Of a stretch of DNA of 64,000 nucleotides, positions 1 to 59,546 are shown in pieces. This DNA is from Enchytraeus crypticus (taxonomy: Eukaryota > Annelida > Clitellata > Enchytraeida > Enchytraeidae). A model generated the notes under the pieces. The model was not told the origin of the DNA, ran no database searches, and saw only the letters and a program-made list of their open reading frames with translations. The stretch lies in the NCBI GenBank assembly GCA_905160935.1, contig CAJHZI010000741.1, positions 338,501 through 402,500 on the forward strand. The letters run 5' to 3'. The translations under genes were made by a program, and so were the position numbers. Numbering within the stretch: the stretch's first letter is position 1; the number at the start of each line of letters is the position of its first letter.

Positions 1-3000
1 CTGCTCCACTGGGAGGCGTCCACGAGAGGTCCCATGTCGATGTCCTTCTCCAGGCTTCCACCCAACTGTAGATGAGTCATTCGCTCCTTCACGCGTCTCA
101 CAAACTCCGCCATGATTGTCTCCTGAACCAATAGTCGTGACCCAGCGCTGCACACCTACATAAACACACACAATAGTCGTGACACAGCGCTGCACACCTA
201 CATAAACACACACAACAGTCGAGACCCAGCGCTGCACACCTACATAAACACACACAATAGTCGGACCCAGCGCTGCACACCTACATAAACACACACAATA
301 GTCGTGACCAAGCACTGCACACCTACATACACACAAACAACAGTCGAGACCTAGCGCTGCACACCTACATAAACATACACAGTTTTTTTCTTCTCTCTCT
401 ATTTCTCTCTTTCTTTGTTTCTCTCTCTCTCTCTCTCTGTCTCTTTCTACCTCTCTCTCTACCCTATCTCTCTCTCTATCTCTCCCTCTCTCTCTCTCTC
501 TATCTCTGATATTCTGACAAGAGTCAGGGTACACAGTCTGCCTGTGCAATATGAAAGAACACAAGCTGATGCAGTCGGGAAGGCACACCCGTTGGCCTAT
601 CCAAAGAGTAAATTCGAGTTTGAGACACACTCATATAAGTGGCTTTCCTTTTCTGAATCAGCATTTAGAAAAGGTGAAAGGTTTAATTTCGTTTTATTCA
701 ACAATTTCTCGACTCAAACAATTTATTTGCACTTGTAATTATAATGGATTTACCAAAAAGGAATCAAGAGTGTATATTTAGAACACTGAAGGTAAATTTT
801 TGAGATAGGGAGAAGAGAACAGAGACTGCATTAATTATAATTATAGATTACTATGAGTTCATTCTGGTGCACGAATTACTTCTAAAATGTTAACATAAAT
901 ATGGTAATACCACATTACTCTAAAAACTACTAAATCAGCAGATAAAACTAAATTCTCTAAAAATACAAAATGTATTTTACTTTCCTATTCACATATTTCC
1001 TTTTTATTTTTTCTTCAAAACTTAATGTCAGTCAGAAATTGTTATATGTCATGTCATCAGATAGTATTAATTGTTTAGGTTAAAGAAATGTCCTGTTGAT
1101 AAATTACAGAGATATAAATACTGATTAATTGCAATGAAGACACTAAGGGAGAAGACAGCATGTAGTATGTTCAAGAAACCTGTCCCTGATTGAACCAAAT
1201 AGCGTCCACCACTCCCTCCACCGTACTGTCCAGATCAGTCGTGTCAAACACCACCACCGGTGACTTACCTCCAAGCTCTAGAGACAGCTTCTTACCAGTG
1301 CCAGCTGTCTCTCTACGCAACACCTGCCCTATCTAAATATATAGACACAAACACATACATACATACATACATATACATACACACAATACGCAAGCACATA
1401 TATGTACATGAAAGAACATACATATAAAATGATGTAAATATACATCAAGCTACTTAACATCTAGTGCAAGTGAGCGCTTCCTTAGAGAAGCATCCAGGTT
1501 AAGATGTGATTAAAAAAACAGTGGTTCTCAAACGAACAATTGATTTTGTTACCAAATAATTTGTTACCAAATAATTACTAATAACTATAAAATCATTCAA
1601 AAGTCATGGCAAAGAATCAGCGATTACGTCAGAAAAAATACTAAAATGAGCAACATCTATTTCAGACCAACCTCAGTGGATCCAGTAAAGGCAACCTTAT
1701 TAATGAGTTTGTGATTGGCCAGCAGACTGCCAATAGAACCAGGACCTGTCACCACGTTGAACACGCCAGCAGGAAGCCCCGCCTCCGCACATATCTCAGC
1801 GAATAGAAGTGCAGAGAGACGCGTGTAGGTGGCAGGCTTGAGCACGACCGTGTTGCCCATGGCTAGGGCTGGGCAGACCTTCCATGCCAGCAGCATCAGT
1901 GGAAAGTTCCATGGAACTATCGCCCCCACGACACCTGTCGAATGAAATAAATATATAAGAATTTAACATTCGGTTCCTCGCCATAAGGCAATGTCAAATA
2001 GAATCAACAGTCTATTAGAAAATATCAGAAAACTTATGAGTTACAGTTTAAAAGCACAAGATTGTTTAACTTTCACTTTATCTTCTGACGATGATATCAA
2101 GAAAGTTTCAGAAAACAATTGGCATCAGTTCATCCACACAAAGTATGATCGCACAAGTAGATGGTAAGAGAAATTAGGAGTTAGACAAGCATGATGCAAG
2201 TCCACCTACCTTACATAATCCATTAAAAGCGTGGGCACTTAAGAAACATAAATCAGGCTGTGCTAAACTTAAAATTTAGTAGTCAATCAACCAATAAATC
2301 TACCAAAACAATGTAATAGAAACAGTGCAATAGAACAGTGTTTGCAATAGAAATAATGAAATTATAAAACTTAAAAAAGAAATATTTGTAATAGAAACAA
2401 TGTAATAGAAACTGTGTTTGTCAGTACGTCAACAGTAGCTTGTCATTATATTTTTTGTATGATTGTGACATGCAAATATTTGAACCACACTGTACAAAAT
2501 AAATGACATCATGCATAGTCACAGAATTATTTGAATGCTATCGGGTTTCTTAATTTCTAGAACTACAGATCAACATTTAATCCATCTGTAAATGACTCAA
2601 TGAAAGTAGCTAAGTAGAAAGCATGTAAACATTTAAAAAACAAATTTTTACACAATTTATGATGAATAAATAATAAAACCTTTACCATTTAATGATAGAC
2701 ACATAGTTTGAATCCTACATTTTATTTTAATATGTATATATGTACAAGAAGCAGCATGCTAAAGTAGTAAGGTAGTACGTCCCCTGCAAGCATAGTTATA
2801 CATGCTTTAAAGAGCTGCTCATATTTGTAGGGAGTCAGATGGTGGGTCAAGGTTCAAAACCAGTGTTCGCCAAAGCACTCAAATGCATCGGAGATAGGAA
2901 ACTCACATTATACTTGGCCTTACCTTTTAGTTTGTGCAACTCCAGCATAGCTGTTGATCTTGAATACCAAGCTAAAAGCACAGTTGAGAGCTGAAAAACA

Positions 3001-6292: not shown

Positions 6293-6416
6293 TACAGATA
6301 ACTACTCCAACTCAGGATCAGTATGCTGAAACTGTCAAAACAGAAATTATTAACTAATAATTTAGTGAAACATAGAAGACAGCCTGTAAAGTAGCAAATG
6401 TTCACACACATTTTTC

Positions 6417-6418
<2 letters not shown>

Positions 6419-6462
<44 letters not shown>
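6419..6462. repeat. (TA)n microsatellite
   Basis: About 22 uninterrupted TA dinucleotides, 130 bp upstream of the ALDH16A1 start codon. Confidence 0.95.
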
Positions 6463-6465
<3 letters not shown>

Positions 6466-11285: not shown

Positions 11286-14200
11286 TCAGTAGATCTGAAA
11301 CCCGCCCCACGTTGAGCCGTCCCTCCACAGCGGGTCATCGGCGATAGCCGTGCGGCACATGGGACACGTGCGATCACGATCAAACCACATAGCAACACAT
11401 TCCTCACAGAACACATGCTGTAACATACAAACACATGGAAAGATTAAATCACATAGCCATACATTCCTTACAGAACACATGCTGTAACATACAAACACAT
11501 GACAAAATTAAATCACATAGCCACACATTCCGCACAGAACACATGCTGTAACATACAAACACATGGAAAGATTAAATCACATAGCCATACATTCCTTACA
11601 GATCACATGCTGTAACATACAAACACATGACAATATCAAACCACATAGTAACACATTCCTCACAGAACACATGCTGTAACATTACTGTAACAAATTTACA
11701 TGTGTGATCAATATCAAGTCAGCAGATTATATAGTCTTCAGATATCTGCATAAAGCACAATCTTATTAACACACAGGCTTTAGAAATAAGGAGAAAATGC
11801 GTCTATTGTACTTTGAGAAGCCTATCTACACAATCTTGACATACAGTGGATAGGCTAACCTTGCAGTTGAGTAGGACAGGGTCGTTGAACTTGTCCTGAC
11901 AGATAGGACAAATATTATCATAGGACTCCAGTAAGCTTCTGTCAGCCACCGATCCGTAACTCTAGACAATCCGTAAGTTGATCAATCAGTCACAAATCAA
12001 TCAATCACTCATTGTAATAACACAGCTGATATGACGACATGCCGGCTGATATAGAACCTATAATATATAATTATTTACAAAGAAGAAACTGATTTTATGC
12101 ATTCTATAGAAATTTTATCATATATTATTATTACATAGAGAACTTCATAGTTTATCAAAATCTTGATGACCAATATACGAGAGTCTATAAGGACCAATGA
12201 AAGTAATACCAAATATTAAATGGATAAATAGGACTAGACTTCGTTTTATATAAATTGTACACAAATACTAATAAATGATGCACCTGTTTATTGCATCTAA
12301 AGGTAATGAGAGAGCACAGGCTATGTACTAATATTGAGGCGTCCTGATTACAGGTTAAAGAATAAGTACACTGTCGATTGCTCTTGTATGATCTCTCTTT
12401 AAGCTTGGAATTCGGAATAATTTTAATTACGAAATGAAAAAACAGAAAAGCTACTCACGAAATTCATTCTGAACTTTGCAAGGGCAGCCATGAATTCTTT
12501 GACTTTCTTTAAAAGATGAAGAAACTGAAAAAAACATATGTATATAAATCGCTTGGCATGAAAATCTTATATGATTATACATACATAGAGGCTCAATTAA
12601 ATTAATCAAAATGGCTTAATAACCTTTTGAAATTGTTTAAATAGTGATAAAAAGATATTAAAATTATATGTCTCTAATTCTCTATCGTCTTCAGTACATT
12701 AAGAAAAAATAATAATAATATAACACTCAGAATCAAACCAGCCAGTTTATTAAGTAAGTTATCAAACGTACAAGCTTATTTAACCTAATAAACCTTACCT
12801 TACCTTTATTAATTTATCTTTTTTTTAATTTTAGAATTCACTCTGGAGTGCATTCCAGAAAAAAAATAATAGATATAAAATTTTCACTTCTGCTTAAGTA
12901 GAAGTCATATAATAAAGCAGATAGAAACCTCTGCAGATAGTTTATCTTTTCATTCTTGAAAAACAACAGAAAAACTCGTGCTAGCATAGCTATAAAGTAA
13001 CTGGTAACAAAAGCTTACACGTGTTAGTTGTTTTATTTATTTATATTTATTTGATCACATTCGGGGGTCTTAGATCCATGCTCGATCCCTCACACTGAAA
13101 GACAAACTGACTCTCAAGGGGGGATGGAAGACTAGTGGTGACGTCACTGTATGGGGGTGCCTCACCGTATTTAGCTGCTTCGCTGCTGAGGACTATAAGC
13201 GGCTTGCTGATAAAGTGTTTGTTTATTTGATTATTTTTATTGGTGGTGTTTTATATCCTAAATCACTGGCATCATAATCAATCAATCAATCAATTACCTC
13301 TTCAATTTAATAAATCATACAGTCATCCGCTAAATTGAGTTGACTGATTGATTTCCTAACCAACATTTTGATAGAAATCGTTTAACAGATGCGCAGATGG
13401 ATGTCTTCAGGTCAAAGATGATACCTTAGCAATGGCGTAGAGAACGACAAGCATGGAGGCGACCCACTGACCCCCGTGCTTCTGGTCTGTGATGAAATAG
13501 AACCACGGCAGAATGGGCAGCAGACTTCTGTACAGCTGGCTTAGTGTTTCTAGCATCATGTGATATCGTCCCTAGCGACAGCAACAACAACAACAATATT
13601 ATTTATACCAGACGAGTAGCAAGTGCTGTATGCATGAAACCTCAGAACAGCAATATTTGGATACACGGGTAGTAGCAAGAAGCTTAGCATGACATAGTGA
13701 CCAAGCTCCAAGATGAGCAAAACCCTCGTTAGAAGGGCAGCCGTTCCTCTGACTGACTAATTCTAAAATTACAATACTAAATTAAAGATTAGCAGCCACT
13801 GAAAAATTGAATGAAATGGCACATTAATTACTAGAAAAATAGTTCAAGGTTTACTTAATAATAATTAGTATTTTGTTAATTATGAGTTCATATTGAATAC
13901 TTAATTTATGGTCAAAAAATTTCAAAAAGATATCTTATAGAAAAGTAAAGACCACAGAATAAGGAATTATACAAAAAATCTATTCATTCGCTCTTCTGAT
14001 ACCACCACTGACCATCAAAACTTTCTTATTGGAAGGTTTTGCACTTTCCGCAACATAAATGATGCCTTCGTTTCAAGAAAATTAGCTTTCTAACGGTCTC
14101 TTCAGTACTTGAGTCAGTTGCCACTCCCCAAATAACAAGAAAGTTTTGTTGATTTTTACATTCTCTGACTCAAGATGAAACGAACGACTTTGACGTGAGC

Positions 14201-17200
14201 TTCACTTTCTTCACTAGTACCTGCTAGTCAGTAATTAAAGAGTGCACATTTTATATCTGGCGCACCTTATTTCTTAAATCTTCATGACTGCTTACCTTTT
14301 GACTGTAAGGCATGCAGAATCGAGGCAGGGCCACAACCATTGTTTTGAGCAAAACAGTGGAAAACTTGACAACGTAGTCAGTTGTACCAGTAATCCACAG
14401 CATAGTCCATAGGTTTATCTCATCAAAGTGAGGGCATGTAAAGTATAGCCTAAAACATACAAAAAACTCATCAAGTGGCGGAATGTAAAATATAGCCTCA
14501 AACGTAAGTACATATTCAAAGTCCAAGTCCATACTCCTCAGTTTTTCTCCTTCAATTTGATGAGGTTGAATACCCGGGGGGGGGGGCACTCGTACTCAAG
14601 TCAGGGGAACACGTACAATCCTACATTTGTTTTGGAAAAAGTAGGTTAATTTTTCACCTCTGAAGAAACTCAGCGGATTGGACGAATTACAAAAAGACCT
14701 AATTTGGCGGTGGGGGGGGGGGGGGCTTAAGCCCCCCCCAGCCAAGACTGTTTGCACCACTGCTCCGGGACAGAGTTTACATTTTTTACTTACACCCTTT
14801 TTTCTTCTTATACAGTGGTTAAAGTGAAAATTGAGAGCTAGTGAAACGGTCAACATTTTATCTTTCGGGCCCCCGTCCATTATACAGGGCTCCTAGTATA
14901 CGAAATATGGGCCTCTAGTGGGACCCATACTTGAAAAAAATCGAGCTAATGGAACTGTTCGAGCTTCCTCTCGTCCCCCCCCCCCCCAACCACTGCCCTC
15001 ATAGACATATTTACACATAGAAATTTCCATAGAAACAATGAAAATATAGTGTAAAAATTTTTTCGGCGAGCCTAAGGGGGGGAGGGGTCCGGGTCCCCTG
15101 GATCCGCCACTGCATGACTGATACTTATTTACTGATGCTCACTGGATGCTCATTAACTGATTCCTTTATTTCACAACTAAATTGAAGAATTTCGGCCACA
15201 GTAGTTTTACCAGTCACTCATATCACATTCCCCAGTCAACTGAAGTCAAAACGATGGTTGAACGAGTGCGACACACGCTAAAAAGAAAAATGACTGTTTA
15301 TAGACCAATATATACTCGGATACCGAACTCTACAACTGCCGGCATACATAAATGGAAGTCCAAATATCCAGTATAAAACAATAAAAAGAAAGTTTATTCA
15401 AATGTACCCTGTATAACTTAGAAACTGCCAACATAATGCCATGTCTTTTAAATTACACTTTATATTTCTACAAATCCTCAATTCGTTACACCTCCACATA
15501 TAGCATTAACTCACCCAATCTAATCTAATATTGAATCCACTATAATCATATCAAATTTAATCTATTCTAATAAAATAATAGCTAATCTATTCTAATAAAA
15601 TAGTAGCTAATCTACTCTAATAAAATAATAGCTAATCCATTCTAATATAATAATATATAATCTATTCTAATAAAATAGTAGCTAATCTGTTCTAATAAAA
15701 AAATAGCTAATCTATTCTAATATAATACTAGTTAATCTATTCTAATGAAATAATAGCTAATCTATTCTAATAAAAGACTAGTCAATCTATTCTAATATAA
15801 TACTAGTTAATCTATTCTAATGAAATAATAGCTAATCTATTCTAATAAAAGACTAGTTAATCTATTCTAATAAAATAATAGCTAAGCTATTCAACATAAC
15901 CAACACGTCCGACATGTAAGGGATACTCAATTGAAAGTGGTACATATGACTAGAACGGACTAATCATATTATTACTAAGCAATACTAGTCAACAAAAGAC
16001 TGACGTAAATAAACTATACTCATTCAATCAATCAATCAAAGATGCACAGACAAGTAAAACTATTATATATTCATCCGTGTATAAAGAATAGTATAATTGA
16101 AACCATTAAGCATTTAACCATAAATAAAGTACTAACAGTAAGAAAGCAAAAATTCAAGATAAAAATGATAAATTTTCCGAGCTGCATGTTGAGCGAGAAA
16201 TGATTGCTTTGAAGCATACGCTTTATATAGGTGCTGATCGCTGAAGAAGTAATATATAGAGAAGATATTGAGAGCTAAAAAGAAGATAAGCCAAGCCATG
16301 TTCTTTGCATGCTCTCCAGCGTTTGTATTGTCCTATAACATATCAATCAATCAATTTGACAGTCAATATATCAATTATGAATCAGTATATTAATCAGATA
16401 ATGAAATTAATCTAAATTAAGGCTAAAAAGTTAAACATACACTATAGAGGACTAGGGCCACGGTTGTCAGGCAATTTTTGGGTCCTAAAAATATAGAATT
16501 GAAAAAAATGATCATTCGAGATGACATGTATTACAATTAATATTACATGCTTATAATATCAGGCAATTAAGTCAATTATCTGTGCCCCAGTCTAGTGAAA
16601 GTCCAAGATTTTATTCTGTAACCAGTTCGCCTAGGAATCTAAACCACGAGGACTGAAATCACTGCAGGATTGCCCGTTTAGAATTTCATGACGAGCCCTG
16701 AGGCTCACAGCTTTGGAATGTGCTGCAAACATAGTAACATACCCTATTTACGTCTTAACGGAATAGACGCTAACACGTTTTGAATACAGTTTCGATTGCA
16801 AATTATAATTATAAGGGTCTACAATTTTATTATTCCGATACAGTATAGAAATTTAATAATAAGCTTGATATCATTATCAAAGAGCTTAATACAAAACCTA
16901 TTGAATGTGACAATATACACAAAAATTTATCAGAGATATTGAAAAAGTATATCTTGCATCACTTTTGCCATTTGTCAGTCAAAAAATAATTTATAGTATC
17001 AGATTTATATATGACGAATGTAGAGTTGTAAACACTAAGTTTTACTGAAATCTTCCTGCCTTCTCATTTCAATTACACTGAACAGCTTTGACTATTAAAT
17101 TCTTCAGTGAGATAAGCCTGGGAGAGCTTTGCCTTCAATGGGCAAGAGATTGGGCACTGACAAGCTTCTAGCCAGACTGTGATTGACTGTGCACTTGAAA

Positions 17201-19533: not shown

Positions 19534-20660
19534 CCTTATGGTGGCTGTTGTGAAGCTTTAATCACAAACAGACTAACTGAGACTGTCAGTGACTGACTAT
19601 CCTGATTTATCTCGATAAGACACTGAATTGCTGCTAACACATAGCCCCACATATATACATGTTTATAATGTACAGAATGCAGCATGAACAAACCATGTAA
19701 AATATTAAAACTGAAAATTTCTTCACAAAATGTTCAGTTATTTTAAGTAAGATAACCAGACTTGGTAGCTTAAAATTTTATTGAAAATCTTAGTTCATCA
19801 GAGAGTTAAGGCACTTTAATGACATAACTCTTGTATAATACGATAGGTAAAGATAAGTTAAGGTAGCTAAATTAAAATAAAACTTTATAGTTATTAGTAT
19901 ATTTTATATATTGCTTAGAAATTTACACAGTCGTTCCTTAAAACTGCTTTTAGACATTTGTTGGGCAACTTGGCGGTGGTTGATGTAACGGATTACACAA
20001 CAATGAAGAATACATCTGTAATTCACTTTATATAAATTTAATATATTAAATATATCAATACAGCATGGCTGAGTCTGCAGCTCAACTACGTTCATATTCA
20101 TAATAGCCAAAGTTAAATAAAAAAATCATTATTACTATTAGATTTTAATTTATGAAAAATTCAATTAAAGACATTCTATTTAATATTATAATAATTTTCT
20201 AATGTTATAACTTATAATAGTATTTTAGAGGATTGACTGATGATAAGGTATGGTGCAGAGAAGAGTGGAGAAGGTCTATTTGTATCCTGACCCTAGCTAA
20301 ACTAGGATTCAAGGGAAGATGATGATGATTATAATATTGTCAAATTACAAAAAGGATCAGCAAAAAATGCACTTCAAATAATAAATAAATTCAGAAGGTG
20401 TTTAAAAAAAGCAAACAAAAACCGAAAAAATCACAGAAGAATAAAGGCAGAATTTTATAGAGTACTAGTTTACATCCTCTTGAATCTAGTACTCAGTAAA
20501 ATTCTAGCATTCGATTCAAATTAGGCTCCTTTAGTATGCACATGTTATAGATCTTCTTGCTAGAGCCACCTACAATCATAGCTCTGTATCTACTAATAAT
20601 TACTACTAAATTTAATAAAGATTCCGTATACCGAAGACTATGATTACGTATTTCCAACAA

Positions 20661-21530
20661 GAACCAATTGAATTCTTTAGACGAAGGATAAATTGAATTC
20701 TTTAGACGAAGGATAAATTGAATTCTTTAGACGAAGGATAAATTGAATTCTGTAGAGGAAGGATAAATTGAATTCTTTAGACGAAGGATAAATTGAATTC
20801 TTTAGACGAAGGATAAATTGAATTCTGTAGAGGAAGGATAAATTGAATTCTTTAGACGAAGGATAAATTGAATTCTTTAGACGAAGGATAAATTGAATTC
20901 TGTAGAGGAAGGATAAATTGAATTCTTTAGACGAAGGATAAATTGAATTCTTTAGACGAAGGATAAATTGAATTCTGTAGACGAAGGATAAATTGAATTC
21001 TTTAGACGAAGGATAAATTGAATTCTTTAGACGAAGGATAAATTGAATTCTGTAGAGGAAGGATAAATTGAATTCTTTAGACGAAGGATAAATTGAATTC
21101 TTTAGACGAAGGATAAATTGAATTCTGTAGAGGAAGAACCAATTGAATTCTTTAGAGGAAGAACCAATTGAATTCTTTAGAGGAAGAACCAATTGAATTC
21201 TTTAGAAGAAGAACCAATTGAATTCTTTAGAGGAAGAACCAATTGAATTCTTTAGAGGAAGAACTAATTGAATTCTTTAGAAGAAGAACCAATTGAATTC
21301 TTTAGAGGAAGAACCAATTGAATTCTTTAGAGGAAGAACCAATTGAATTCTTTAGAAGAAGAACCAATTGAATTCTTTAGAGGAAGAACCAATTGAATTC
21401 TTTAGAGGAAGAACCAATTGAATTCTTTAGAAGAAGAACCAATTGAATTCTTTAGAGGAAGGATAAATTGAACTCTTTAGAGGAGGGATAAATTGAACTC
21501 TTTAGAGGAAGGATAAATTGAATTCTTTAG
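20661..21530. repeat. 25-bp satellite with 75-bp higher-order repeat
   Basis: About 34 units of 25 bp, each starting GAATTC. Block 1 (20670-21120) has spacer GGATAAATT and repeats as triplets: TTTAGACGAA, TTTAGACGAA, TGTAGAGGAA. Block 2 (21120-21460) has spacer GAACCAATT and triplets TTTAGAGGAA, TTTAGAGGAA, TTTAGAAGAA. The last units revert to GGATAAATT. A 171-residue minus-strand frame across it is an artefact of 75 being divisible by three. Confidence 0.95.
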
Positions 21531-24515: not shown

Positions 24516-27500
24516 GTTAGAATTTTAACTGAATGGTCAAATGCGTTCAGTGAACTTAGTATTTTTACTACACCGGCTTTATTTCCGTCATAGTAAATAA
24601 TTGGCAAAAAAGTAAACACGCACTATAATGAAATGATCAACTACGTTGATATCTATCACTATTTAACATAACATAACATTTACAGAGTCAGGAAGCAATT
24701 GTATGCTTGTTTAATTTTAAGAGCATTCTCATCAGAATGCTCTTAAAATGTAAATGAACCTAAAATGAATCTAAATGAACTAAAATGCTCTTAACTAAAA
24801 CCAATTAATATTAATCAACTCATACAGACTTCATGTCACCATGTCAAATTTATACATAGCCTATGTATAACACTGAACATGCAATTAGCTTCTAATTTAC
24901 ATGTTCTTATGTTTATCATATTTATTTTTAAAATCATTCACTGATTTTGCTTCCACAACTTTGCTTGGCAAACTATTCCAAGCATTTATAACTCTCTGAC
25001 TAAAGAAAAATTTCCTTAAATCTAGTCTATTTTCTAAATTTATTAAGTTTATAAATATGTCCCCTTGTGTTTCTGTTGTTTGATAAATTAAACCAAATAC
25101 TATGGTTAACTTTGCTGAAGCCTTTGAGTATCTTAAAAACTTCTATAAAATCTCCTCTAGTTCTTCTCTCACTTAAAGAGGTTAATCCTACGAATTTTAA
25201 TCTATTCTCATAACTAAGTTTTTGACAGTCAAATACCAGCCTTGTTGCTCTGGCTTGTATCCTTTCTAATTTGTCGATATCTTTCTTAAGATATGGGCAC
25301 TAAGCCTGAACGCAGTATTCAAGTTTGGGCCGTACAAGAGCCTTATATAGCCTTACCACAGTATCTTTATTTCTACATGCAATTGTTCTTTTAATCATTC
25401 TTAATACACAATTACCACTATTTACAACTTTATTACAATTTTCACTAAATTTAAAAGAGCTATCCATAAAGACTCCTAAACCCCTCTCACTGTTTGTGGA
25501 TTTTAGTTTAATATTGTTCAATGTATACTCAATTTCTAAATTATTATTCCCTATATGCATAACTCTACATTTCTCAGCATTGAACTCCATTAGCTAATCG
25601 CTAGACCACTTCTGTAATATTTTATATCATACTTTAAAATCTCAGCATCTTCAATGTTATTTACTACCTTTGCTACTTTAGAATCATCTGCAAATTTACT
25701 AAATTTAGATACAATATCTATGTCAATGTCATTGATGTAAACTAAAAATAATTAGTTTTCTATTGCTTAAACAATTACCTATCCACTTTAAAAGATTGCC
25801 CGTTATTCCATGTGCTTCCAACTTACTAGGTAATCTTTTATGTGGAACTTTATCAAACGCTTTAGCAAAGTCTAGATATAAGATATCAATGCTATTATTA
25901 TTATCTACTTCCTTTATAATATATTCTAAAAAATCTAGCAAATCAGTTAAACAAGAATGCCTACCAATAAAACCATGCTGACTATTTCTAATTAAGTTAT
26001 ATTCTTCCAAGAAACTAATTATTTTATCCTTAATAATGCTTTCAAATGTATTACCGATTATACTTGTTAAGCTTATAGGCTTTTAATACCACATGTTTAA
26101 ACCGTTGGGCAATTTAGACCATTTTTCGTATAACCAGTCCAGTGAATGTCCGAGATTTTACTCTCAGATCAGCGCGGCTGGGATTCAAACCTACGAGGGT
26201 CCATTCATCTCAGGAACTGTCATTTAAAACTTTATGACGTTACCCCTACGCTACTAAGACATTCTAATTGGCGTAGCAAATATCATATCAAGGCTGCATA
26301 GTGAAAATAAGAATTTGTCAGAAATAAATATTGATAATATATCAATCTGAGGATCATATAATTTATTAATTTAATGGTTTTGTAATCTTATATGAATACT
26401 AAATTGTTCTTTAAATAGTATTTTAGGCTAAGCTAATTTTTATAGTTTTGATGCGAGGCGAAGATCTTTCGTTCGGTGATCAAGACAAATGGTACACCTG
26501 AACCTTCAAGTTCTACGATGACCCTGGATGAGACTACGGACTGAACTTCATGCCGGAAGATGGTATTGACCTCTGCAAATAGAGATTGATTTGTTGGCAG
26601 TCGCTGCTATACAGGATCAACGCTACGACTGGAGATACTAAGCACTTAACTATTGAGCTGTGCTACCTACTCCTTGAGACAGCTGCTTACTTACTTTGTA
26701 ATTTCATTAGCACGCTAGCTTAGGAGTGGTCAAAACAATTTGTTATAGAGTGATTACTCTTCTAGAAAATCTGTAAAAGTCAGGAATTTGAGAGTGGTCA
26801 GGGAAATGTCAGGGAAAATGAAAAAGTCAGGGTAAGGTCAGGAGGAGCAGAATTAGAATTAGTTAACATTTTCAGTATATAAATTTAAAAAAATTTAAAC
26901 TCATGCATTTGAAAAAATTCACAGGCTATGTTGGTATTGAACTAAAACGAATATTAATCAAGATATCAATGGCAACACTTCAAAACCTTCAAAAAATGTT
27001 GGCATTGTCATTCTATTCAGAAGTCGATGCTGCCACGACAATAGAAATATCGAGACACACGGACTGTCAGGAAATAAGGTAGAAGTCACCCTCATTAGAG
27101 GGTCAACTTGTTGTCAGCAGCAGAGCTCGATGCAGTGAGAGTCAAATGCAGATATTTATTATGATAATTGGAATTTATTCTAATTGTATTTAATTATAAT
27201 TATCCCCTTCATATTCTTGTTATGTCCTGAATTTGATGAGTCACCAGTACACATGTATAATGTTTCTATGAGTTATTTGATGAGTCACCAGTACACATGT
27301 ATAATGTTTCTATGAGTTATTTGATGAGTCACCAGTACACATGTATAATGTTTCTATGAGTTATTTGATGAGTCACCAGTATACATGTATAATGTTTCTA
27401 TGAGTTATTTGATGAGTCACCAGTACACATGTATAATGTTTCTATGAGTTATTTGATGAGTCACCAGTACACATGTATAATGTTTCTATGAGTTATTTGA

Positions 27501-30500
27501 TGAGTCACCAGTACACATGTATAATGTTTCTATGAGTTATTTGATGAGTCACCAGTACACATGTATAATGTTTCTATGAGTTATTTGATGAGTCACCAGT
27601 ACACATGTGTAATGTTTCTCAATTATATTTTAGATTGTCTGGACAGTGGAAACAACAAGAAAGCGCTGGCAGAAGCTGAGCGTGTGTTGAAGAAGCAGAA
27701 AGATTTGTATTGTGCCAAGGTATGCCTCTTATGTGATTGTTTGGTTTAAGACACTTGTAAAAGTCTAGTAATGATTTCTATGTTTTAACACCAATTGAGC
27801 ACATTGCAAACTTGAATACCACTGGGCTGCTTGACTTTCATTGTCCATTTAGCGCTACTCTGTGACGCTTTACATAGAGCTTTATAAATTAATTTATTGA
27901 TGGATTATGCTAGAGATAATAATTTAATATTTAAAGGATAGTGCAATTACTAATTAGAGATACTTTTAATATTTTTTATAGGGTACATTTTATTGTTTGA
28001 TCGCTTGTTATAAATAAACTTTTTGAAATTGGTCTGCAGTGCTAAAATAATGTAAGACGACTCTTATGTCATCCTCAAAGACGAAAAGAATTTAAAGTTT
28101 GCATAAACTGATTGATAAAAGCTAAAGCTGGTAAAGCTAGTGTTAACGTCAGTTTCCTCACTCGAAAGCGATGTCAGTGAGACGAACCCAGGATTTGAGC
28201 CCCGCATATACTCTCCGCGGTCGAGTATCTTACTGACATCGCCACTGGCTCCAGCCAGTGACTGATATTCACTTATTGAAATTCATGATACTGCTGATTG
28301 AGATGCTATTCAATGTCTAAATTTAAAAGCATGGTAATTTACAAGTAAATTATGGCGAAACCAAGTAACTGTATTAACAGAGTTATTATTGACTTTCTTT
28401 TAGTTAAATGTTGAATTAGTGATTTGACATATATTGATACTTCTTAAGCCTACTAATAATTGTACCTGACACTCAACAGTGTTTGTTGGTGTTCTAAGAA
28501 GCTTGTTCTCATGTTGTAGGCTCTCAAGGCGTTGGCAATGATAAGACTGGGCAAACGGGATGAGGCTTTGCCGCTGTTAGATGAGGTACAGTGCCAAAAG
28601 CCCTCTGATGACAACACACTCACAGCCATGTCCATATGCTACAGGGAACTTAGCAAATGTAAGTAAAAAGCAAACTGGTAAGGCTAATGTTAAAGTCAGT
28701 TTCCTCAACCGAAAGCAATGTCAGTGACGGGCGAGCCCAGGATTTGAACCCCGCACATATTGATCCGCAGTCAAGTATATTACCGACATTTCCACAAACT
28801 CTCCTGTAGTTTAAGAGCTCAAACTATATTCCTTTTATAATAAGCTCCGTGATTTGATCTAATTTTAATAATATTTTAGTAGACTCACTGGGTTACGTAA
28901 TGTCTGCTCACTGTCCTTTTCTTATCTATTGGTATTGTATGAGATTATTTTATAGTATAAAATCCTTTGTATATGGTCTAATTTCTGCATTCTTAATTTT
29001 AATCTTCTTAAAATTCTTCCTTATATTAGTTGGAAACTTGACATTTCAAGATGTAGCTTCTGCGATATAAGTTAATTAAAATAAAGGTAAATTTAGTTAT
29101 TTAGACTAGATCTTCAAATGTTCCACCAATGTAATGATTGTACTTCGGGTGCTAACCTACTTTCTTTTCCGGACAATTAATCTTTTCTCAGTAGCTGCTT
29201 ATTAAATTTTGTTATTTCTAAACTGGAATTCGTTATCAATGGTTAATGGCATAAACTTTATGTGACATTCAAGTGCAAGTTTAAGACTAAAATCTTTTCT
29301 CTATGCTCTTAAGATTTTTTGTTTACTATTTTTACCTTATCTACCTTGCAGTTTTGCATCGTGCAGTAATGGTGTGATATACCTGTAGTAGTATAGTTTT
29401 AAAACGTATTTATATTGTTTGCTTCAATGTAGTTGTATAGTTTGCTTCAAAGTAGTCATATAGTTTACTTCTAAGTTATTGTATTGCTTGCTTCATTGAC
29501 ATTTCCTTTGGGTGAAGGGTTTTGACTTTTAAAAATACATTGACAGGCTGACTGATTGATTAATTGATATATTTTCTGCTTTCATAGCTGATAAATTGAA
29601 TGATCAATTAACTAATAGCTTCATTTGCCATTCATATGGCTGGAGCCAGTGGCGAAGTCGGTAAGATACTCGACCGCGAATCAGTTGGTGAGGGGTTAAA
29701 AACTTAAAATCCTGAGCTCGCCCGTCATTGACATCGCTTTCAAGCGAGGAAACTGACGTTACTTGATTTATTGGCTGACCGGTTGTACAGTCGACATGAT
29801 TGATTTATTGGCTGACTGGTTGTACAGTCGACATGATTGATTTATTGGCCGACCGGTTGTACAGTCGACATGATTGATTTATTGGCTGACCAGTTATACA
29901 GTCGACATGATTGATTACCGGTTGTACAGTCGACATGGTTGATTTATTGGCCGACCAGTTGTACAGTCGACATGATTGATTTATTGGCTGACCGGTTGTA
30001 CAGTCGACATGATTGATTTATTGGCTGACCGGTTGTACAGTCGACATGATTAATTTATTGGCTGACCGGTTGTACAGTTGACATGGTTGATTTATTGGCT
30101 GACTGGTTGTACAGTCGACATGGTTGCGGTCCTCTATGAGAACGCTCATGCAGTGAGACCAGACTCGGAGGAAGTACTGAAGTCGCTGTTCTTTGCCTAC
30201 GCGTGGCTGGGTAACTATAAGAAGCAGCAGCAGTATGGCATGGTCCTGCACAAGCTCAAGCCTCTCAAGAATCCCTACTACTTCTGGGCGGTCATGAGCA
30301 TCGTTATGCAGGCATGTGGCTTCTCTTAACTAATTTTATTATTATTATTTTTGAGTTAATATTGTTTGTCTTTACAGATCACTGGTTAACTTAACCTGGC
30401 GGCTCGTTTTGGCACAGCATGCATGTTTACCGGCATCTGAAAAGTATAGATTTTAAGTAATTAATTTAATTCTTCTTATATATGGATTTAGACTAATCAT

Positions 30501-33500
30501 TTGGTCTTAGAGGTTAGGTACCTATTTTATTTGCTTAGGGCAAAATATATGGGAATAATTAATTGCACTACTAAGTATTAAGCTACCGATTTTTAAGACT
30601 TTTTGAAGTACTGAGGTGGTTTGTATATCGACATTAATAAATGAACATCGACTGTGGTGCATAGTACTATCAAACGTCTTTTCTTAATGTTTGTATATAG
30701 TAAAAATGTAGGTTCTTAAAAACATGAATTGGCATTTAGTCTGCTCAATAACAATAAAAATATATATATTGCCTAATTGATGGTTGAATGGTTGCATTTT
30801 AAAAGCTTCTTTCAAAGTTTAAATGATTGATTGGTCGTTGATTAATTATTTAGGCAGAGGATGATAAAAAGTTAGGTCAGACCATGTTTCTGCCGCTAGC
30901 TGAGAAAATGACTCTAAAATATATACAGGATGGAAAGCTTGAGGTTGAAGCAGGTTTGTGGATCACTTTACTGTTGAACATGAGTTGATTAATTATAATT
31001 AGTTAAGTTATTCTGTTGCCGCTCACTCTTCAATCCTGTACTATGATTGGTAGTATAGTTTTACAAATCTTTGAGGATACTGATATGGACATTGCATTTA
31101 TTATTGTTTTGCATTTGCTTGCGGGGTCAGACGGTGCTGAACTGCTTGTAGTTGTATGTTACGTTTGAGATGTCCCTGACATCGCATTTGAGCTAGGTAC
31201 TGGACATTAGATCTTGGTATTGCACCATATTGTATATTTGAGTGATGCCTTGTTATTGAAGAGTTTTAATTTATACATGTATAACTAGCATTCTTGTACC
31301 TACAAAGACCACATAGTGCATCAAAATTAATTTTTATGTCTGTTTTCTATGTTTAAAAATGAAAGTTCATACTTGAATAGTGTTTGTATAATGTAAATAG
31401 ATATATTGGATTGATTGATGATATCTGATAGGAGTACATCTTTTTTTTACTGATTTTATATAATTAAACTTTATTTTCTTTTCTATTAAGGATATAGTGT
31501 TATTTTATGGAAAGTTCAAGATCGGATTGATTGATTGATATCTCTCTAGTTTTTTTCTAAGTAGCATATTCTAGGTAAATTTTCCTACTAGCATTCTGCT
31601 TTTGCACACCGTAAGGAGCACTTCTTTGATTAAGGAGCTAATCCATTCACAAAAAGGCTATGCATAGCCACTCCTTAATGCAGCCTGTATCTTAGGAATT
31701 GTATGGCTTCCAAGGTAATTTCCCTTTTTCGTCCTTATTTCTTGCTCAGTTGCTAAATTATTTCACGCACAGTCTTGATTGGTCTATAATTCAGTCTACC
31801 ACACATAACGAAGGTAAATTGAATGATATATTGATGCTATTTAATAGAACTGCTTCTGTCAGTATTCTTCATCCTATCGTTTGTCACATTTTTCAATTAT
31901 CATTTGGACGTCACTTGTCTGATAATATTGTCGTTGTATTACAGAACTGTGTGTGATAGTACTCTCGTTGTATACAAAGCTGTGTGTGACAGTATTGTCG
32001 TTGTATGTGTGATAGTATTGTAGTTGTATTACAGAGCTGTGTGTGATAGTATTGTCGTTGTATGTGTGATAATATTGTAGTTGTATTACAGAGCTGTGTG
32101 TGATAGTACTCTCGTTGTATACAAAGCTGTGTGTAATAGTATTGTAGTTGTATAACAGAGCTGTGTGTGATAGTACTCTCGTTGTATACAAAGCTGTGTG
32201 TGATAGTATTGTAGTTGTATTACAGAGCTGTGTGTGATAGTACTCTCGTTGTATACAAAGCTGTGTGTGATAGTATTGTAGTTGTATTACAGAGCTGTGT
32301 GTGATAGTATTGTCGTTGTATACAAAGCTGTGTGTGATAGTATTGTCGTTGTATTACAGAACTGTGTGTGATAGTATTGTCGTTGTATTACAGAACTGTG
32401 TGTGATAGTATTGTAGTTGTATTACAGAGCTGTGTGTGATAGTACTCTCGTTGTATACAAAGCTGTGTGTGATAGTATTGTCGTTGTATAACAGAGCTGT
32501 GTGTGATAGTATTGTCGTTGTATTACATAACTGTGTGTGATAGTATTGTAGTTGTATTACAGAGCTGTGTCTGATAGTATTGTAGTTGTTTTACATAACT
32601 GTGTGTGATAGTATTGTCGTTGTATTACAGAACTGTGTGTGATAGTATTGTAGTTGTATTACAGAGCTGTGTGTGATAGTATTGTAGTTGTATTACAGAG
32701 CTGTGTGTGATAGTATTGTCGTTGTATTACAGAACTGTGTGTGATAGTATTGTCGTTGTATTACAGAACTGCGTCTACTAGTATTGTCGTTGTAGTACAG
32801 AACTGTGTGTGATAGTGTTGTCGTTGTATGTGTGATAGTATTGTAGTTATATTACAGAGCTGTGTGTGATAATATTGTAGTTGTATTACAGAGCTGTGTG
32901 TGATAGTATTGTCATTGTATTGCGTCTGATAGTATTGTCATTTTATTACAGAGCTGCGTCTGATAGTATTGTCGTTGTATTGCGTCTGATAGTATTGTCG
33001 TTGTATTGCGTCTGATAGTATTGTGTTGTATTGCGTCTGATAGTATTGTGTTGTATTGCTTCTGATAGTATTGTGTTGTATTTATAGAACTGCGTCTATT
33101 AGTATTGTCGTTATATTGCAGAGCTGCGGCTCTACCTGATCATACTGGACTGCCTGGCTAAGCACGCAGAGGCTGTGGAGGTGCTGCGAGGACCTCTCTC
33201 AGCCAAGCTCACGTCTGAGCCTGACTTTGTGCGACGCTATGAGGCTGAGCTCCTCGTTAAGCTTGAGCGATGGTCCGAGGCGTGCGAGGCTTATAGGAAA
33301 CTTCTTGTTGACAGGTTAGTTAGCTTGATAAAAGCCATGACTTGTAAGACATTGATTTATACACAGATATGCAAACATATAGTTAAAGTAATTATGTATG
33401 TTAATCAATTTGTATACACTTATGTGAAACTTCTTTTGCGTTTTGAATATATTAAAATGCATAGGAAGTGATTTTGCCATTAACGAACAGGACACCTAAA

Positions 33501-34704: not shown

Positions 34705-34739
<35 letters not shown>

Positions 34740-37700
34740 TAATAATATTTATAATATAATAATATAATTATAAGTACTTGCTAAACAATCTGTTGATCTC
34801 ATTGAAACTTCTTTCCATTTGTAAAGATTGTCTATCAACCTGCTAGGATTTAATGGAGCGTGCTTTCACAGCTTAGTTAAACGAGACAATCTTGAGTAGC
34901 CTGGCTGTGGTTCAACCCTTTCTTTCTATTTTTAATCTCTTCCATCGAGTCCCACGGCCGTTACAGGATAGGTTTTTTATTTTACAATGTAAAATGTTAT
35001 AATTTAAAAATAATAATAACAATGTAAGGGCATTCTATGAAAGCGTAATGTTTTTTATTTGAATGAAGGTTATTAGGGTAGCAATTATTTTATGAAATTG
35101 GGGGTTCTTTTTTCATATTTTAAGTTTGAAACTTCGGATCAGATAAGATGCGGGATTCAGATCCTCTGTTCACTTCTTTGCTTACTTGTATTCAATAATT
35201 TAAACAGACACTAAATTATATCATTGAGCCTTTTATATATTATAATTATTATATCTTACTGTATGCTGCATAACACTGGATTATTATTTGTTGTAGTCCA
35301 GACAATTGGTTGTTCTATAAAGAATATCTGAGATGTGCAGTTGAGTGCATACAGCCTAAGGACGACAGGTACTTTTGTCTTATCTTCTTTTTGGAATGTG
35401 CTGAATGTACATAGGCTCTCACGTGCAAATGGCACGAAGTCAATTTTTATTAATTTTAGTTTATTGCAGTCGTAATTACTTTCTTTAACAAAAATAAATA
35501 TGCACATGCAATGGTAATTTGTCATTCACTGAATTAATTATGTAGTATATTTCTAATTAAATAAAATTTTTATGTTAAATATTAATTGGTTGTTTGATTT
35601 ATTTACTTGTACTGGATATATTAAAGCCAAAGACAAGCCGCCAATATACTTAAAGCTATCTTTAACTTTTTGTAGTTATTGCAGTAGTTATGTCAATTAA
35701 TGGAGCGTTTTTGTATACTAAGTTATTAAAGGTGTGTACTATACAAATTTGAATCAGTAGACCTAATGTGTGCTTCAAGGACTTTTTTGATTTTATTAAG
35801 AGTTTCTTTATCTATGGGTAGAAAGGCTACAGCTGAGATTTATCTCAGTTTCCTGACTGAAAAGTATGCCAATGATGAGGCGAGTACTGAATTTGAACCT
35901 TGAACCTACTTCGTTGAAGTTGAAAACCTAGCCGATCTTGTTACTTGATGTTTAGCTCGTTAAACTGATTGATTGGCTCGCAGCACTGCGGCCACTGACG
36001 CAGTTTCTTTGTCGACTGTGGTGGAGTTTTTGAAGAGTCAATTGGCAGCATCGTCAGAGGCTAGCTATCCACTGCGCGGACCCTACCTGGCTCAGCTTGA
36101 ACTCATCAGGGTTTTAAAACAACATGGCAACTCTACTTGGTCGACGTTACTAGGTTTGATTGACATTCACTCTAATATATATTCTGCATAGTAGATTTAA
36201 TATGAATATTGTATTCATTTTATACATGAGGTGATCAATGTCCTAATTAATGAGGTGATCAATTACCCGACTATAGCTAAAAACTGGGATTGAGGGAAAG
36301 ATGAATCTGATTATATTCATTTTATACAATATTATTACAATCTTAAATAATTATTTGATTGTAATAATATTGTATAAAATGAACTTATATAAAATATAAT
36401 GATTCGATCACATCAATATCATAGTTATGATAATTATGGGTTCGAGCAGTACTCCATAGTGGGTCTGACGAAGACAGTAAAAGAAACCTTTAAAAGCTCT
36501 AGCAGGAATTTCATACCTGGACTTAAAACAATTAAGAATCTTTAAACTTAGAACAATTAAGAACCTTTGGACTTCAAACAATTAAGAATCTTTGAACTTA
36601 AAACAATTAAGAATAATGGAAGCTTTTCCAAATGATAGAGACGATTGGATTACCTCTAATAGTAAGTGTGTCTCTTTGTGGCATTATGATTGCTTACTAA
36701 TTCTTAATCAAAATTCATCTTCTCGTCAATAATTTCGGTTGCTTGAAATTATGAGTTTCTTAATCTAAAGAATGAAACAAGTTACTCTAATTTTATATGA
36801 GCATAATTAATTGTATTTTTCTTGATCAACTCAGACGCATAGTTATTAATCGATTAACTGATTTATCTCTAGAAACTTTCTAGAGGTGATCTTTTTTTAG
36901 ATAATTTGCTAGCAAAGTGGCACCAAATTTTGACTGACTAATTTAGTGATTGTTGAATTGATTTATTTATAAATTGATTGCTGATTAATTATTGATATAT
37001 ATTTATAGGCAGTCCATTAGATCTGTTGGGTCAGTATTGTGAGAAGTTTGGCAGCAAGGCCTGTTGCTTTGCTGATATCTATGAGTTTATACAGCTTCTA
37101 GAGAGCGATCAACTCAATAAGGTATCAAATAATAAACAAGAATCTAATATCTGACTTCCAATACAAAATAAACTGACCTTTACAGTAACAACATTGAACT
37201 CCTAAGTTATTGTTTAGCATCCATTTCCACATCTTCTCTTCCTAATCAAACTTGTGTCACTTTCAGATTTATGCTATTTTTTTATAGTCTTGCCTCAGGA
37301 TGAGAGTTTTTTTATTCACTTTTGTTTTAACTGTGCTGCTAAGACGGTTGAGAGTATATTGTGTAGAATGATTTCACGGATTTTGATTGCACTCACACGC
37401 TTACAGCAATTCACTCTTGACACATTTCATCAGTTATATCATGATGGACAATTGGAAATGAAACATATGTAATGGAAAAGTTTTGAATATAAATTTTAAT
37501 TTTTTGAGCTTATATTTATACATTCACCTTATATTTATAAATTCACCTTGATTCATCTAAGCGCTCTAATTAATGTACAAGTTGGTGAAGCTATCCCATA
37601 ATGCATTAAATGCACTGCAGTGGAGGTTGATCAGTTTGTTGTGAAGCATTTCTATGGGAAGTTTCTAATTAAATTCCGTTGGTGCATAATGATATTACTG

Positions 37701-40638
37701 GACCTAGTAGATGTGTGGAGGGCAACAGCATCATAGCTGACCTTCTCAATTTCCATAAAATAACTAATCACTTTAGTGTACATTATCTTAAAAAAATGTC
37801 TTACTGTTCAATCATCATCTGTAGCACTTTGATATATTTGATCTCATTTCTGTCTATTCTGCTTCGTAGGGCTTAGAATTAGATCATCATCATCATCCTC
37901 CCTTGAATCTCAGTTTAACCAGAATTACATAATTTTGTATATTTATATGGCTGGCTGATTGGTTGATGAATGCGGGATGACTATAATTGATGTGCATATG
38001 CGTCGTATAATTTTGCTACGATTGTTGGCACATTGACAGGATTTTTACTTTGATTAGTTAACGTATCATGTATTTTTTGTGCACCAGTGGGTTAGTGACA
38101 TGTCAGCCAAAGTCAGTCTTAGGAACCCAGATGATACCATTGTCTTTCCTGAAGATGTATGTAACACATTTTCTACATCTTTTTATGCGAGATTAGTTTA
38201 TTAATTATTTATTGATTAGTTACTGATGTTGTTTTAGAAATTTACTTACAACAAACATTATCTAATGTCAGTTTTCTATGTGACAGTGAAATTATGTGGA
38301 ATACCGTACGGTACTGTAGCTTTGATGTTAAGACCGTATACATGTCGTAATGTGGTAAAGTAAAGTAAATACGTATTATAGTGAAATGATCTTTGTTGAT
38401 ATCAATCACTTTTAATACCACATGTTTAAACCGTTAGCAATTTAGACCATTTTCTTTTATTATCTTGGTGTCGTTAGTGAATCAATATGTTACTTGCTGA
38501 GGATGGTAATTGTATTGCGAAAGCTCAAGTGAGATTAAAAATTTATTTCTCAGTGTTACATTCCTTTTGCAATATACTTCAATTTTATTGAAAATTAACG
38601 CAATGAACTACATGCACAGCAAAATGTACTTCTAATAAACTATCATGCTTAGCGAGTCATCAGCAGACGAACTTGACTGACTGATTGACTGATGATTGAA
38701 TGATGGACTGACTGATTGATTGAGTGACTGACTGATTGATTGAATGTTTGACTGATTGATTGAGTGACTGACTGATTGATTGAATAACTGACTGATTGAT
38801 AGATGGACTGACTGATTGATTGAATGATGGACTGATTGATTGAGTGACTGACTGATTGATTGAATAACTGACTGATTGATAGATGGACTGACTGATTGAT
38901 TGAATGATGGACTGATTGATTGAGTGACTGACTGACTGATTGATTGATGGACTGACTGATTAATGGACTGACTGACTGATTGACTAATTGATTGATTGAT
39001 TGGTTGACCGACTGATTGATTGATTGATAGATTGGAGGCGCACAGCGTCATATCCTCTCTGTGCAGCTCTCTCGCTATGCAGGACAACACGCTGGGTTGA
39101 GCCTGAAGGAAACACTTAGTCTGGTCAATGAGCTCTTACAAAGATACAGAGATGGACTGAGATTTGGTATGTTAGTCACACTGTGGTATTGCGTCTAAGT
39201 CAAATATCTCTCTCTTAGTGCACTGCCTACTGGCAGGTCCATGGTATATAACGCCTCCACTCTTCTCTGTCTTCCGCCGTCCTCTTCATTTCCACATATG
39301 AGTGGGTCTTTAAATCATGTAACATACCTAATCTCGGCTTACCTCTGCCTCTATTTCCTTCCATTCTGCCTTCTTTGACCTCTTTTAGTAGACCTTTCCC
39401 CCTTAGAATGTGTCCTATTAATTAGAATGTGTTTATATTAATTGTTATTGCACCAAATTCACATAGATTGATGGTTATTGCAACTAAGTCACATACACTG
39501 ATGGTTATTGGACCTAAGTCACATATGTTGATGGCTATTGCTCCTAATTCACATGCATGCATGGTTTGAATCTTTGAACTGCTGCTACTGGTGATTCAGA
39601 TTTACACTAAAGAAAATAAAGCCTTTTTTCGCTTGACAGGTGTAGTTATGTTGTTTTTTGCTACCACTTACTAAGGTAGATCTATGATTTTGTTTATATG
39701 CCTACTGTATATAGGTCTAATTGAAATTTACTGATAGATGAACAGGTCTTGTGCTGTCTTTTTGTTTGTAATATTGTATTATAATATTTTCAACGTATAC
39801 AGTTGCTGATATATCTAAAACAAGCACAGTTTTAAATTGGATTTTGCAGATGGATTCTCTTGTTATATTATGTGTGTGTTTCATAGTGTAGTACTGTGTT
39901 GTGTTATGCAGGTGCTGGTATATCTAAGACAAGCATACAGTTGGTAGATTGGAATATACAGATGGCCGTTCATCTACTGCATGATCTCTATCAAACTAAC
40001 CGACAATCTGATGGCAAGTGTCGTAACTTTAATTATTTAAATTCCATTTTGTTCATCTGAAGTCAACGAGGTAGGAATTGGTTATTGATTATAATTATCT
40101 TAAACCTCGTACATTCATAGATTTAATGACATCAGTTGATTTACTTTCGCATATTTGAAATAATGTTGATAGAGGATGATGATGATGGTGAAGATGATGA
40201 TGGTTGAAATAATGTTGTTAGATGATGGTGATGATGGTAAGCTTGGTAATGGCAGTGATGATAATATTGTTGGCAGTGGTGATTGGTGGTAGTGGCAAGT
40301 TTTATTTCCCTTTGATTAATTTAGTAGTTTTGTTGTTTAACTGTTATATTGATTGATTGAAAATTGATTAATTTATTGATTGTAGGTTGGCAGTATTTGT
40401 TTTCGGCGGTAACTCTGCTAGAGGACGCTCTGAGCAGAAGCCCGTCTAATGCTCAGCTCACTCTGCTGCTCACAAAACTCTACACTGAGTTAGGGGCTGC
40501 TGATGCTTGCCGCGTGACATATGAAACCATGGACGTCAAACATATACAACACGACTCAATGGGGTAGGATATCTTAGCCTTTCTGTGTTCTCTAGACTTG
40601 CAGATCTCTCTCTCTTTCATTCATTCTCTCCCCCCTCT

Positions 40639-40685
<47 letters not shown>

Positions 40686-41071
40686 CTACTAGTAAGTGAT
40701 ACGTCGATATGGGTTAGTGCATTAGGTATTACACATTGATTGGTTGTAACGCATTCACATGTTTATATATGGGTTATGATGCATTCACACGTTTATATAT
40801 TATCCTAATTTTTCTATTTGATTGAATTAATTTTAATTAACGATCTATGACTTAAAACGTTACAATCTTTTTGTTTCAGCTGGGTCATATTTAACCCGCT
40901 GTTGAGGTTTGGTCACTTATCATCTGCTAATACTCATTTAGATAACATGCTACAGTTCTTCAGTGGTGTTCGCAAAGAGGTCAGTTTGATGCATTATTTT
41001 ATTTGCTATATAGTACGGTTAAGAGTACTACTTGTAATGTAGATTTGTGACGCTTTTGAAAGTATAGTTTG

Positions 41072-41120
<49 letters not shown>

Positions 41121-43269: not shown

Positions 43270-43303
<34 letters not shown>

Positions 43304-45526
43304 TGCTCTCATATATGTTATGTGGCAGGTCCAATTTACTTAGTTCTATTCATTTTCAGCTTTCATGCTACATAAGAGAACTCCATCGATCAACTCACTT
43401 TCATCAATCTTCTCCATCTGTTTGGTTAATCCTGTTACAATTATATTTGGCTTATCTGTGCTTGTAACTTGGAATTGTGTGACCACCGAGGTGGTTTCTC
43501 GTTTTCTTCCTAAGTTCTTGCTCAGTAGCCTCTTCAATAGCATATGCTGTTTATGTATAGTCTATTATTGAGTGGCTCGAATTAGACATGAATGATATAA
43601 TGTAGTGTTCATATTGTAGCTGTTGTTGTGTCACAGTTGTTATTGTTGTTGTATCAGTCACAGTGCCACAGTTAACGAGGTGGTCAGAACTTCTATTAAC
43701 CTGTTGTTGTTGTTGTTGTTGTATCAGTCACAGTGTCACAGTTAACGAAGTGATCAACTCTTCTATTAACCTGTTGTTGTTGTTGTATCAGTCACAGTGC
43801 CACAGTTAACGAAGTGATCAACTCTTCTATTAACCTGTTGTTGTTGTTGTTGTTATTGTTGTTGTATCAGTCACAGTGCCACAGTTAACGAGGTGGTCAG
43901 CACTTCTATTAACCTGTTGTTGTGTATCAGTCACAGTGCTACAGTTAACGAAGTGATCAACTCTTCTATTAACCCAGCTCTGGAGAAGATCAACGTTGAG
44001 CTGCTCTCTGATAACAGAGACCTAGACGTCGCCTTCTGCTGGGATCCTCAGTTCAGGTATTGACTTCTGTTTTTTGTCATAAGACTTTACTGACTAACTT
44101 TTTTTTTTGTCTGTCAAGCTGATTTACAATGCATTTGATTTTTATAAATTTGTGTGTTTTTTGATGATTAATATTACGTTACGGTGACTTGATATATGAC
44201 TGCTTGCAAAGCTACATTAGTAATATTTTCATTCTGATTATACTAAACATTGCCCAATGAAACATTTAAACCAAGGCTGTACGCCAGTTTTCCTTTGCGT
44301 CAGTGCTTTCTCTTGTTACAGTAACTTTATTGTCATCATTTTATTTTACATGTTATCTATCTATCATGACTGATAGAGATCACTCAACGTATGAAATTCG
44401 ACATAGTTTCTTTATCTTTCAAAGGATTAAATTACAGTAAACAATTCTACATAGTTTCTTTATCTTTCAAAGGATTAAATTACAGTAAACCATCTTATCT
44501 GTCTGACCTGTTTTCAATCTATAAATCTTCGCGTTGTAATCACTCCTCCAGTAAAAATCTACTTACTGTACCGGACACTAGATCTGCCATTGGCAGATGC
44601 TACTTCAAGTTTTCTGCTCCATCATTATGGAATTCTCGATCACAATATCTTCAATATTCTATTGTATTAGCACTTTCCTGGGCAATCTAAGAACCCATCT
44701 CTTTCCGCCAATAGTCGGTATTCTGACTCTCTTTTCATTCTCGCTTTCTGTTGTGGTCTTTGTAGTTAAGTTGTCATCGTTTTGTGCGTTTGAGTATGTT
44801 GATGCTGAGTCTGCTTGAGACGTCCCTGGCATTGCCTTATGGTGAGTGACCAGATGGTAAATTCTTATTGATTGATTGGTTGACTATAATTTATGTTTTG
44901 GAATATGTAAACGAATTTAGGAAAACTTTTCGGTTCTCTTGCTCCATCTAAGTCAATCATCAGTGACCTTCTTTCTAGTTTATGTTTCTATTGAAAGTTA
45001 TGTGAAGAGGGTAATTTCTACAGAGCGTGTTGGTGCCTTGAGGCCTTTATGTCTTGTATCATATTCTCTGAGTCAAATGTATTCAGTGTTGGATTATTCT
45101 TATTTTCGTGATCGCTATTCTCTTTCTATTCTGTTCTATCTTAAATTTAATGAGGGTCTTGTTCAACATACTTGTTTATAAAAACTATGTAAACTTATTC
45201 GTTTTACAGGCAAATTATTGAAGACTTCAAGCAGAAATCGTATAAAGAAGAGGTATTTATTTTTATATATTATTCTCATACTTTTCTTTTTGTTTAACAA
45301 TAATATATTTATTTTACAATAGTGTTGACAACGTGGCAGTTTAGAATTTTTTACATGACAATTATTTTTAGCTAACATTTTCTATTGAATTTTATGTTAA
45401 ATCTTCTGTTTATTAAAAGCTTATTAAAGTTTTAGTTGCAGATCTAGCATATCTTATTATATCAACAAGGATTGCGTCAGCATTAATATTATTAAAAAGT
45501 GACACTAGGTTAACTTTTATATGCAG

Positions 45527-59495: not shown

Positions 59496-59546
<51 letters not shown>

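Follow-up and report, generated by a model that had tools for sequence, protein, structure and literature searches.

Tandem copies of intron–exon boundaries at acceptors in a spiralian genomic window resemble the mirages of amphioxus

Why should tandem arrays in unrelated genes repeatedly copy the end of an intron together with the start of the following exon, and why at acceptors? A preliminary description of one 64 kb window, by which we mean the whole stretch of DNA analyzed here and which was picked for this acceptor-array pattern, had tentatively attributed such arrays either to a recurrent process that gives rise to minisatellites at 3' splice sites or to retention because they buffer or diversify splicing. 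Following scrutiny of the boundaries in the window, the process reading is partly supported overall. The account that we favor, with a probability of roughly 0.55, is that the arrays are minisatellites of the type called mirages in amphioxus and that their birth is favored at the repetitive 3' ends of introns.

Four genes occupy the window (Table 1), and 31 acceptors and 33 donors were placed in them by reading frame, consensus, and homology. Sites of unsure placement were excluded, namely the acceptors of ALDH16A1 exon 5, SLC45-like exons 2 and 3, and NAA25 exons 10, 15, 16, and 18, and the donors of RNFT exon 3, SLC45-like exon 2, and NAA25 exons 10, 15, and 18. The draft ALDH16A1 protein matched a solved aldehyde dehydrogenase chain (E 5e-143), presumably that of bacterial ALDH16, while the names RNFT and SLC45 are our assumption beyond the RING and MFS domains themselves. 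The transporter corresponds to a minus-strand open frame of 861 residues at 61188-63773, in which MFS matches cover parts only, so that a long insert is likely. GC replaces GT at three of the 33 donors (6140, 30311, and 40013), above the roughly 1% usual in animals. Open frames at 25000-26100 (minus), 56350-57100 (plus), and 46990-47450 (minus) contain what we take, from the letters, to be putative reverse transcriptase or transposase fragments, and an array of about 35 copies of a 25 bp unit (95% matches) lies between RNFT and NAA25 at 20666-21532.

Table 1. Genes, acceptor arrays and copies, and other minisatellites in the window (positions count from its first base)
Feature	Position	Strand	Details
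ALDH16A1	up to ~6300	minus	homology
RNFT	~11290-19600	minus	RING domain match
NAA25	~24440-53110	plus	matches NAA25 chains and proteins so named; naming based on 120 listed of 448 matches
SLC45-like transporter	~58950-63770	minus	MFS domain matches
ALDH16A1 exon 6 acceptor array	129..381	minus	42 bp unit, 5 decoys, 27 exon bases copied; real exon start 155
RNFT exon 8 acceptor array	11378..11682	minus	64 bp unit, 4 decoys, ~40 exon bases; real exon start 11417
RNFT exon 5 degenerate single tandem copy	14419..14506	minus	shift 47 bp, 31 exon bases; real exon start 14449
NAA25 exon 4 acceptor array	29763..30126	plus	37 bp unit, 9 decoys, 12 exon bases; real exon start 30115
NAA25 exon 6 acceptor array	31916..33131	plus	34 bp unit and shorter variants; real exon start 33122
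NAA25 exon 12 decayed copy	39796..39965	plus	shift ~109 bp, 54 exon bases; copy ~39796-39855, original ~39905-39965; real exon start 39912
NAA25 exon 17 acceptor array	43636..43974	plus	60-79 bp unit, 4 AG decoys, 44 exon bases; real exon start 43931
NAA25 TTGA-based 20 bp array	38674..39027	plus	ends 3 bases before exon 11 (39031); not counted as exon-copying
44 bp minisatellite	27231..27619	plus	ends 14 bases before NAA25 exon 2 (27634); near, not spanning
17 bp minisatellite	51510..51642	plus	ends 41 bases before NAA25 exon 22 (51684); near, not spanning
19 bp minisatellite	59213..59316	minus	ends 96 bases before SLC45-like exon (59116); near, not spanning

Each acceptor, from position -10 to +60, was aligned locally with the 1500 bases upstream, and the best alignment was scored. 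Controls comprised 425 mismatched pairs of site and intron, with a maximum score of 31, and 128 reversed or reverse-complemented own flanks, with a maximum of 27. At six of the 31 acceptors the intron end and 12 to 54 exon bases were repeated upstream, with scores above every control: NAA25 exon 17 (99), RNFT exon 8 (91), ALDH16A1 exon 6 (69), NAA25 exon 12 (57), RNFT exon 5 (44), and NAA25 exon 4 (44). At NAA25 exon 6 the score was 26, a value that 4 of the 425 pairs also reach, because the copies take in just 10 exon bases, one of them mismatched; with 22 boundary copies, 20 of them carrying AG, this array was accepted on anatomy as the seventh case. When boundaries were shifted against their own introns, strong copies were found at ALDH16A1 exon 6, RNFT exon 8, and NAA25 exons 4, 6, and 17. 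Two further candidates were not counted: at NAA25 exon 11 the alignment reaches five bases into the exon and scores 25, and the SLC45 alignment scoring 30 covers exon bases only, from +27 to +48, and does not exceed the controls.

All six cases given in the preliminary description for ALDH16A1, RNFT, and NAA25 therefore exist, five of them scoring 44 to 99, above the controls, and NAA25 exon 6 on the anatomy just described. At RNFT exon 5 a copy was confirmed, although it is one degenerate copy 47 bp upstream and not the tandem array that had been described. The decayed case placed in NAA25 intron 11 was not upheld, since the TTGA-based array stops short of the exon, whereas the decayed copy at NAA25 exon 12 is an addition to that list. 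Five arrays and two single copies thus carry 10 to 54 exon bases, a range that replaces the 8 to 45 first given. Unit lengths vary by locus (34, 37, 42, 60-79, and 64 bp), the units differ by inspection, and copies range from 97% identity to decayed, in agreement with the earlier view of a recurrent process and no single repeat family.

The variation among copies also bears on the quality of the sequence. Long tandem arrays are difficult to assemble, and according to the globin paper (PMC3087553) the amphioxus draft contained a misassembled mirage; yet the copies in the window are not identical to one another, and some are single and decayed. We consequently judge it very improbable that the arrays were produced by the assembly or are genuine coding repeats mistaken for intron. 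Against the coding version, homologous proteins lack an insert at the five junctions checked. In NAA25, junctions 3/4, 5/6, 11/12, and 16/17 are gapless against 15 animal homologs when the last copy is used, and at the ALDH16A1 junction the last copy is in step, gapless, with one solved aldehyde dehydrogenase. In RNFT, the joined exons give the C-K-H of the RING domain, the H coming from exon 8. On this indirect, comparative evidence, the last acceptor would be the one used in RNA.

Given that placement, 47 upstream matches were recognized, from which one weak match without AG was omitted to give 46 decoys, and AG is retained in 44 of them, for which reason the idea of inactivated decoys was rejected. 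Their use would add 37 to 1177 bases, with a frame shift or stop predicted from 43 of the 44 that bear AG; the single in-frame, stop-free insert would come from a decoy 60 bases upstream of NAA25 exon 17, and this scarcity also argues against coding repeats. On a small acceptor weight matrix, built from the 23 acceptors that lack boundary copies, the real site was outscored by each of the four AG decoys at NAA25 exon 17 and by some of the decoys at ALDH16A1 exon 6 and at RNFT exon 8. At RNFT exon 5 and at NAA25 exons 4, 6, and 12, no decoy scored higher than the real site. Many decoys therefore look usable by appearance and would be harmful if used. Such features could suit decoys kept because unproductive splicing lowers or tunes expression, or as a source of protein diversity: AG is kept almost throughout, some decoys outscore the real site, and the predicted shifts and stops would act like poison sites. 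We nevertheless hold this to be quite improbable, as no decoy outscores the real site at the remaining loci, decayed copies resemble drift, and diversification would have one open in-frame insert in total to draw on. Likewise, the suggestion in the preliminary description that the arrays buffer or diversify splicing is unsupported by the reading-frame analysis, in which a frame shift or a stop is predicted for nearly every decoy with AG.

Whether acceptors are preferred over donors was addressed by several counts, all of whose p-values are optimistic because the pattern was chosen from the same single window. The alignment scoring found donor-side copies at none of the 33 donors in the window (best score 24), as the preliminary description had stated, and Fisher tests of 31 acceptors against 33 donors gave p=0.022 for 5 v 0, p=0.0098 for 6 v 0, and p=0.0042 for 7 v 0. 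For a placement null, 33 repeat stretches with a period of at least 12 (shorter periods excluded) were merged to 32 arrays, which were put at random while covering at most 45 exon bases; the ends of 14 exons were approximate. By repeat-finder ends, four arrays spanned acceptors versus 0.73 expected (P=0.0055), none spanned donors versus 0.75 expected (P=0.47), and the acceptor minus donor difference had P=0.0028. The 100 bases before acceptors were overlapped by nine arrays versus 2.53 expected (P=0.00025), and the 100 bases after donors by three versus 2.63 expected.

These acceptor figures argue against an absence of site bias, in which common intronic minisatellites would duplicate any boundary equally and the acceptor-only pattern would reflect chance or a difference in survival between donors and acceptors. 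Other counts fit that account better. Zero donors is not clearly below the expectation of 0.75 and so is unsurprising. Arrays near but not spanning acceptors numbered five versus 1.8 expected (P=0.027), including NAA25 exon 6, which truly reaches the exon and which a repeat-finder end at 33082 makes near, not spanning, in the placement tests; without it there were four (P=0.097), and at donors three (P=0.28), such that the excess of arrays other than boundary-spanning ones is weak. Under a coverage null, in which a 24/30-base upstream copy within 1.5 kb is found for 8.3% of 30 bp positions, the interval from -20 to +10 qualified at 4 of 31 acceptors (ALDH16A1 exon 6, RNFT exon 8, and NAA25 exons 4 and 6) versus about 2.6 expected and at 0 of 33 donors versus about 2.7, a contrast weaker than that of the placement null, with a small excess. 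Amphioxus mirages, moreover, are reported at donors and acceptors alike. We regard the absence of bias as a live if doubtful alternative. The preference for acceptors proposed in the preliminary description is accordingly supported within this window, by the exon-copying cases (6 or 7 v 0) and by the arrays lying before acceptors, and is qualified by the small numbers and the weak excess of nearby arrays.

To characterize the intron ends themselves, we scored TTGA runs, a motif picked after inspecting the sequence. Of the 31 acceptors, 10 had a sense-strand run in the 100 nt upstream and none had an antisense run, and runs followed 1 of 33 donors, relative to a baseline of 6.9% of random gene-body stretches (contrasts, p=0.0008 and 0.0023). 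Sense runs lie near acceptors at, for example, 16342-16355, 30824-30833, 36973-36980, 39013-39028, and 40348-40360; many runs also lie elsewhere. They look like repeated branch points, and TTGAT and CTGAC are, we assume, matches to the branch-point consensus. Among the seven exon-copying loci, TTGA runs were found at one, NAA25 exon 4, the other six having TG- or TTG-rich tracts by eye; TTGA tracts are thus not a general source of the duplications. Self-similarity was higher in the flanks of the 23 acceptors that lack boundary copies than in those of donors (autocorrelation, 0.425 v 0.381, p=0.021), and 3-mer entropy was lower (4.57 v 4.80, p=0.016), with arrays overlapping two of those 23 flanks, at NAA25 exons 2 and 22.

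The account that we favor would run as follows. A short tandem duplication would begin within the final few tens of bases of the intron and stop within the first 10 to 54 exon bases, so that at its downstream end the acceptor and exon keep their original form. Because they remain intact there, splicing at the last acceptor, the one adjoining the exon proper with its downstream donor, would yield a correct mRNA. Copies farther upstream may then expand, shrink, and decay as ordinary minisatellites do. Birth would be favored at intron 3' ends because these are repetitive in this genome (TTGA runs, TG/TTG-rich tracts), promoting slippage or unequal exchange; slippage as the cause, the bias of birth, and the neutrality of the decoys are what we infer from the patterns above. 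A stronger version, a lineage hotspot in which branch-point-like TTGA or TG-rich tracts on the sense strand drive acceptor duplications and spare donors, with the splicing signal shaping where repeats are born, is put forward tentatively and is in our judgment rather unlikely. Should acceptor arrays prove common genome-wide in a spiralian, mirages would be a general by-product of intron-end sequence and no cephalochordate oddity. They would also offer natural tests of how the spliceosome chooses among near-identical acceptors and of whether splice signals direct the birth of minisatellites and perhaps the gain of introns.

The phylogenetic setting was examined with NAA25. In a quick tree, with several open forks and a chosen outgroup that does not form a single side of any branch, the window sequence stood beside one other sequence (99) and grouped with three annelids (SH-aLRT 88), and this group was nested among 15 spiralian rows (99), Branchiostoma lying beyond them. 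The window is on this basis spiralian, perhaps annelid. A literature search of limited depth found no report of mirage-type arrays outside amphioxus, which is weak evidence of absence.

Three known systems invite comparison. Ordinary intronic minisatellites share units of 34-79 bp with variation among copies; unlike them, the arrays in the window have units that include the exon start and a placement skewed to intron 3' ends. The Rogers model, in which introns are gained by tandem duplication of AGGT proto-splice segments (cited in PMC3087553), likewise involves tandem duplication around splice signals, and the globin paper proposes that mirages can feed intron gain of this type (PMC3087553). 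Unlike in that model, at the junctions checked the segments duplicated here fall inside an intron that is already present, and the protein runs on with no insert, as at the four NAA25 junctions.

The closest parallel is with amphioxus mirages, for which the founding paper, on Adh, is said to be Canestro 2002. In two later papers, mirages are described as minisatellite-like tandem repeats that span an intron–exon boundary, many units carrying splice signals, with gene-specific unit lengths and reportedly no interference with regular splicing; they occur at both exon ends, with length variants between haplotypes (PMC3087553, PMC3902484). The genes concerned are Adh3, globin, TnC, and PGBD5, the PGBD5 paper adding cases (PMC3902484). 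Set against these reports, the arrays in the window differ in their spiralian host, in their restriction to acceptors within the sample, and in a boundary copy number of as many as 22 at a single site; they agree in a boundary-spanning unit, an AG that is mostly kept, and a unit length specific to each locus. Judged from their sequence, they are of the same kind as amphioxus mirages, now seen outside the cephalochordates, in a spiralian.
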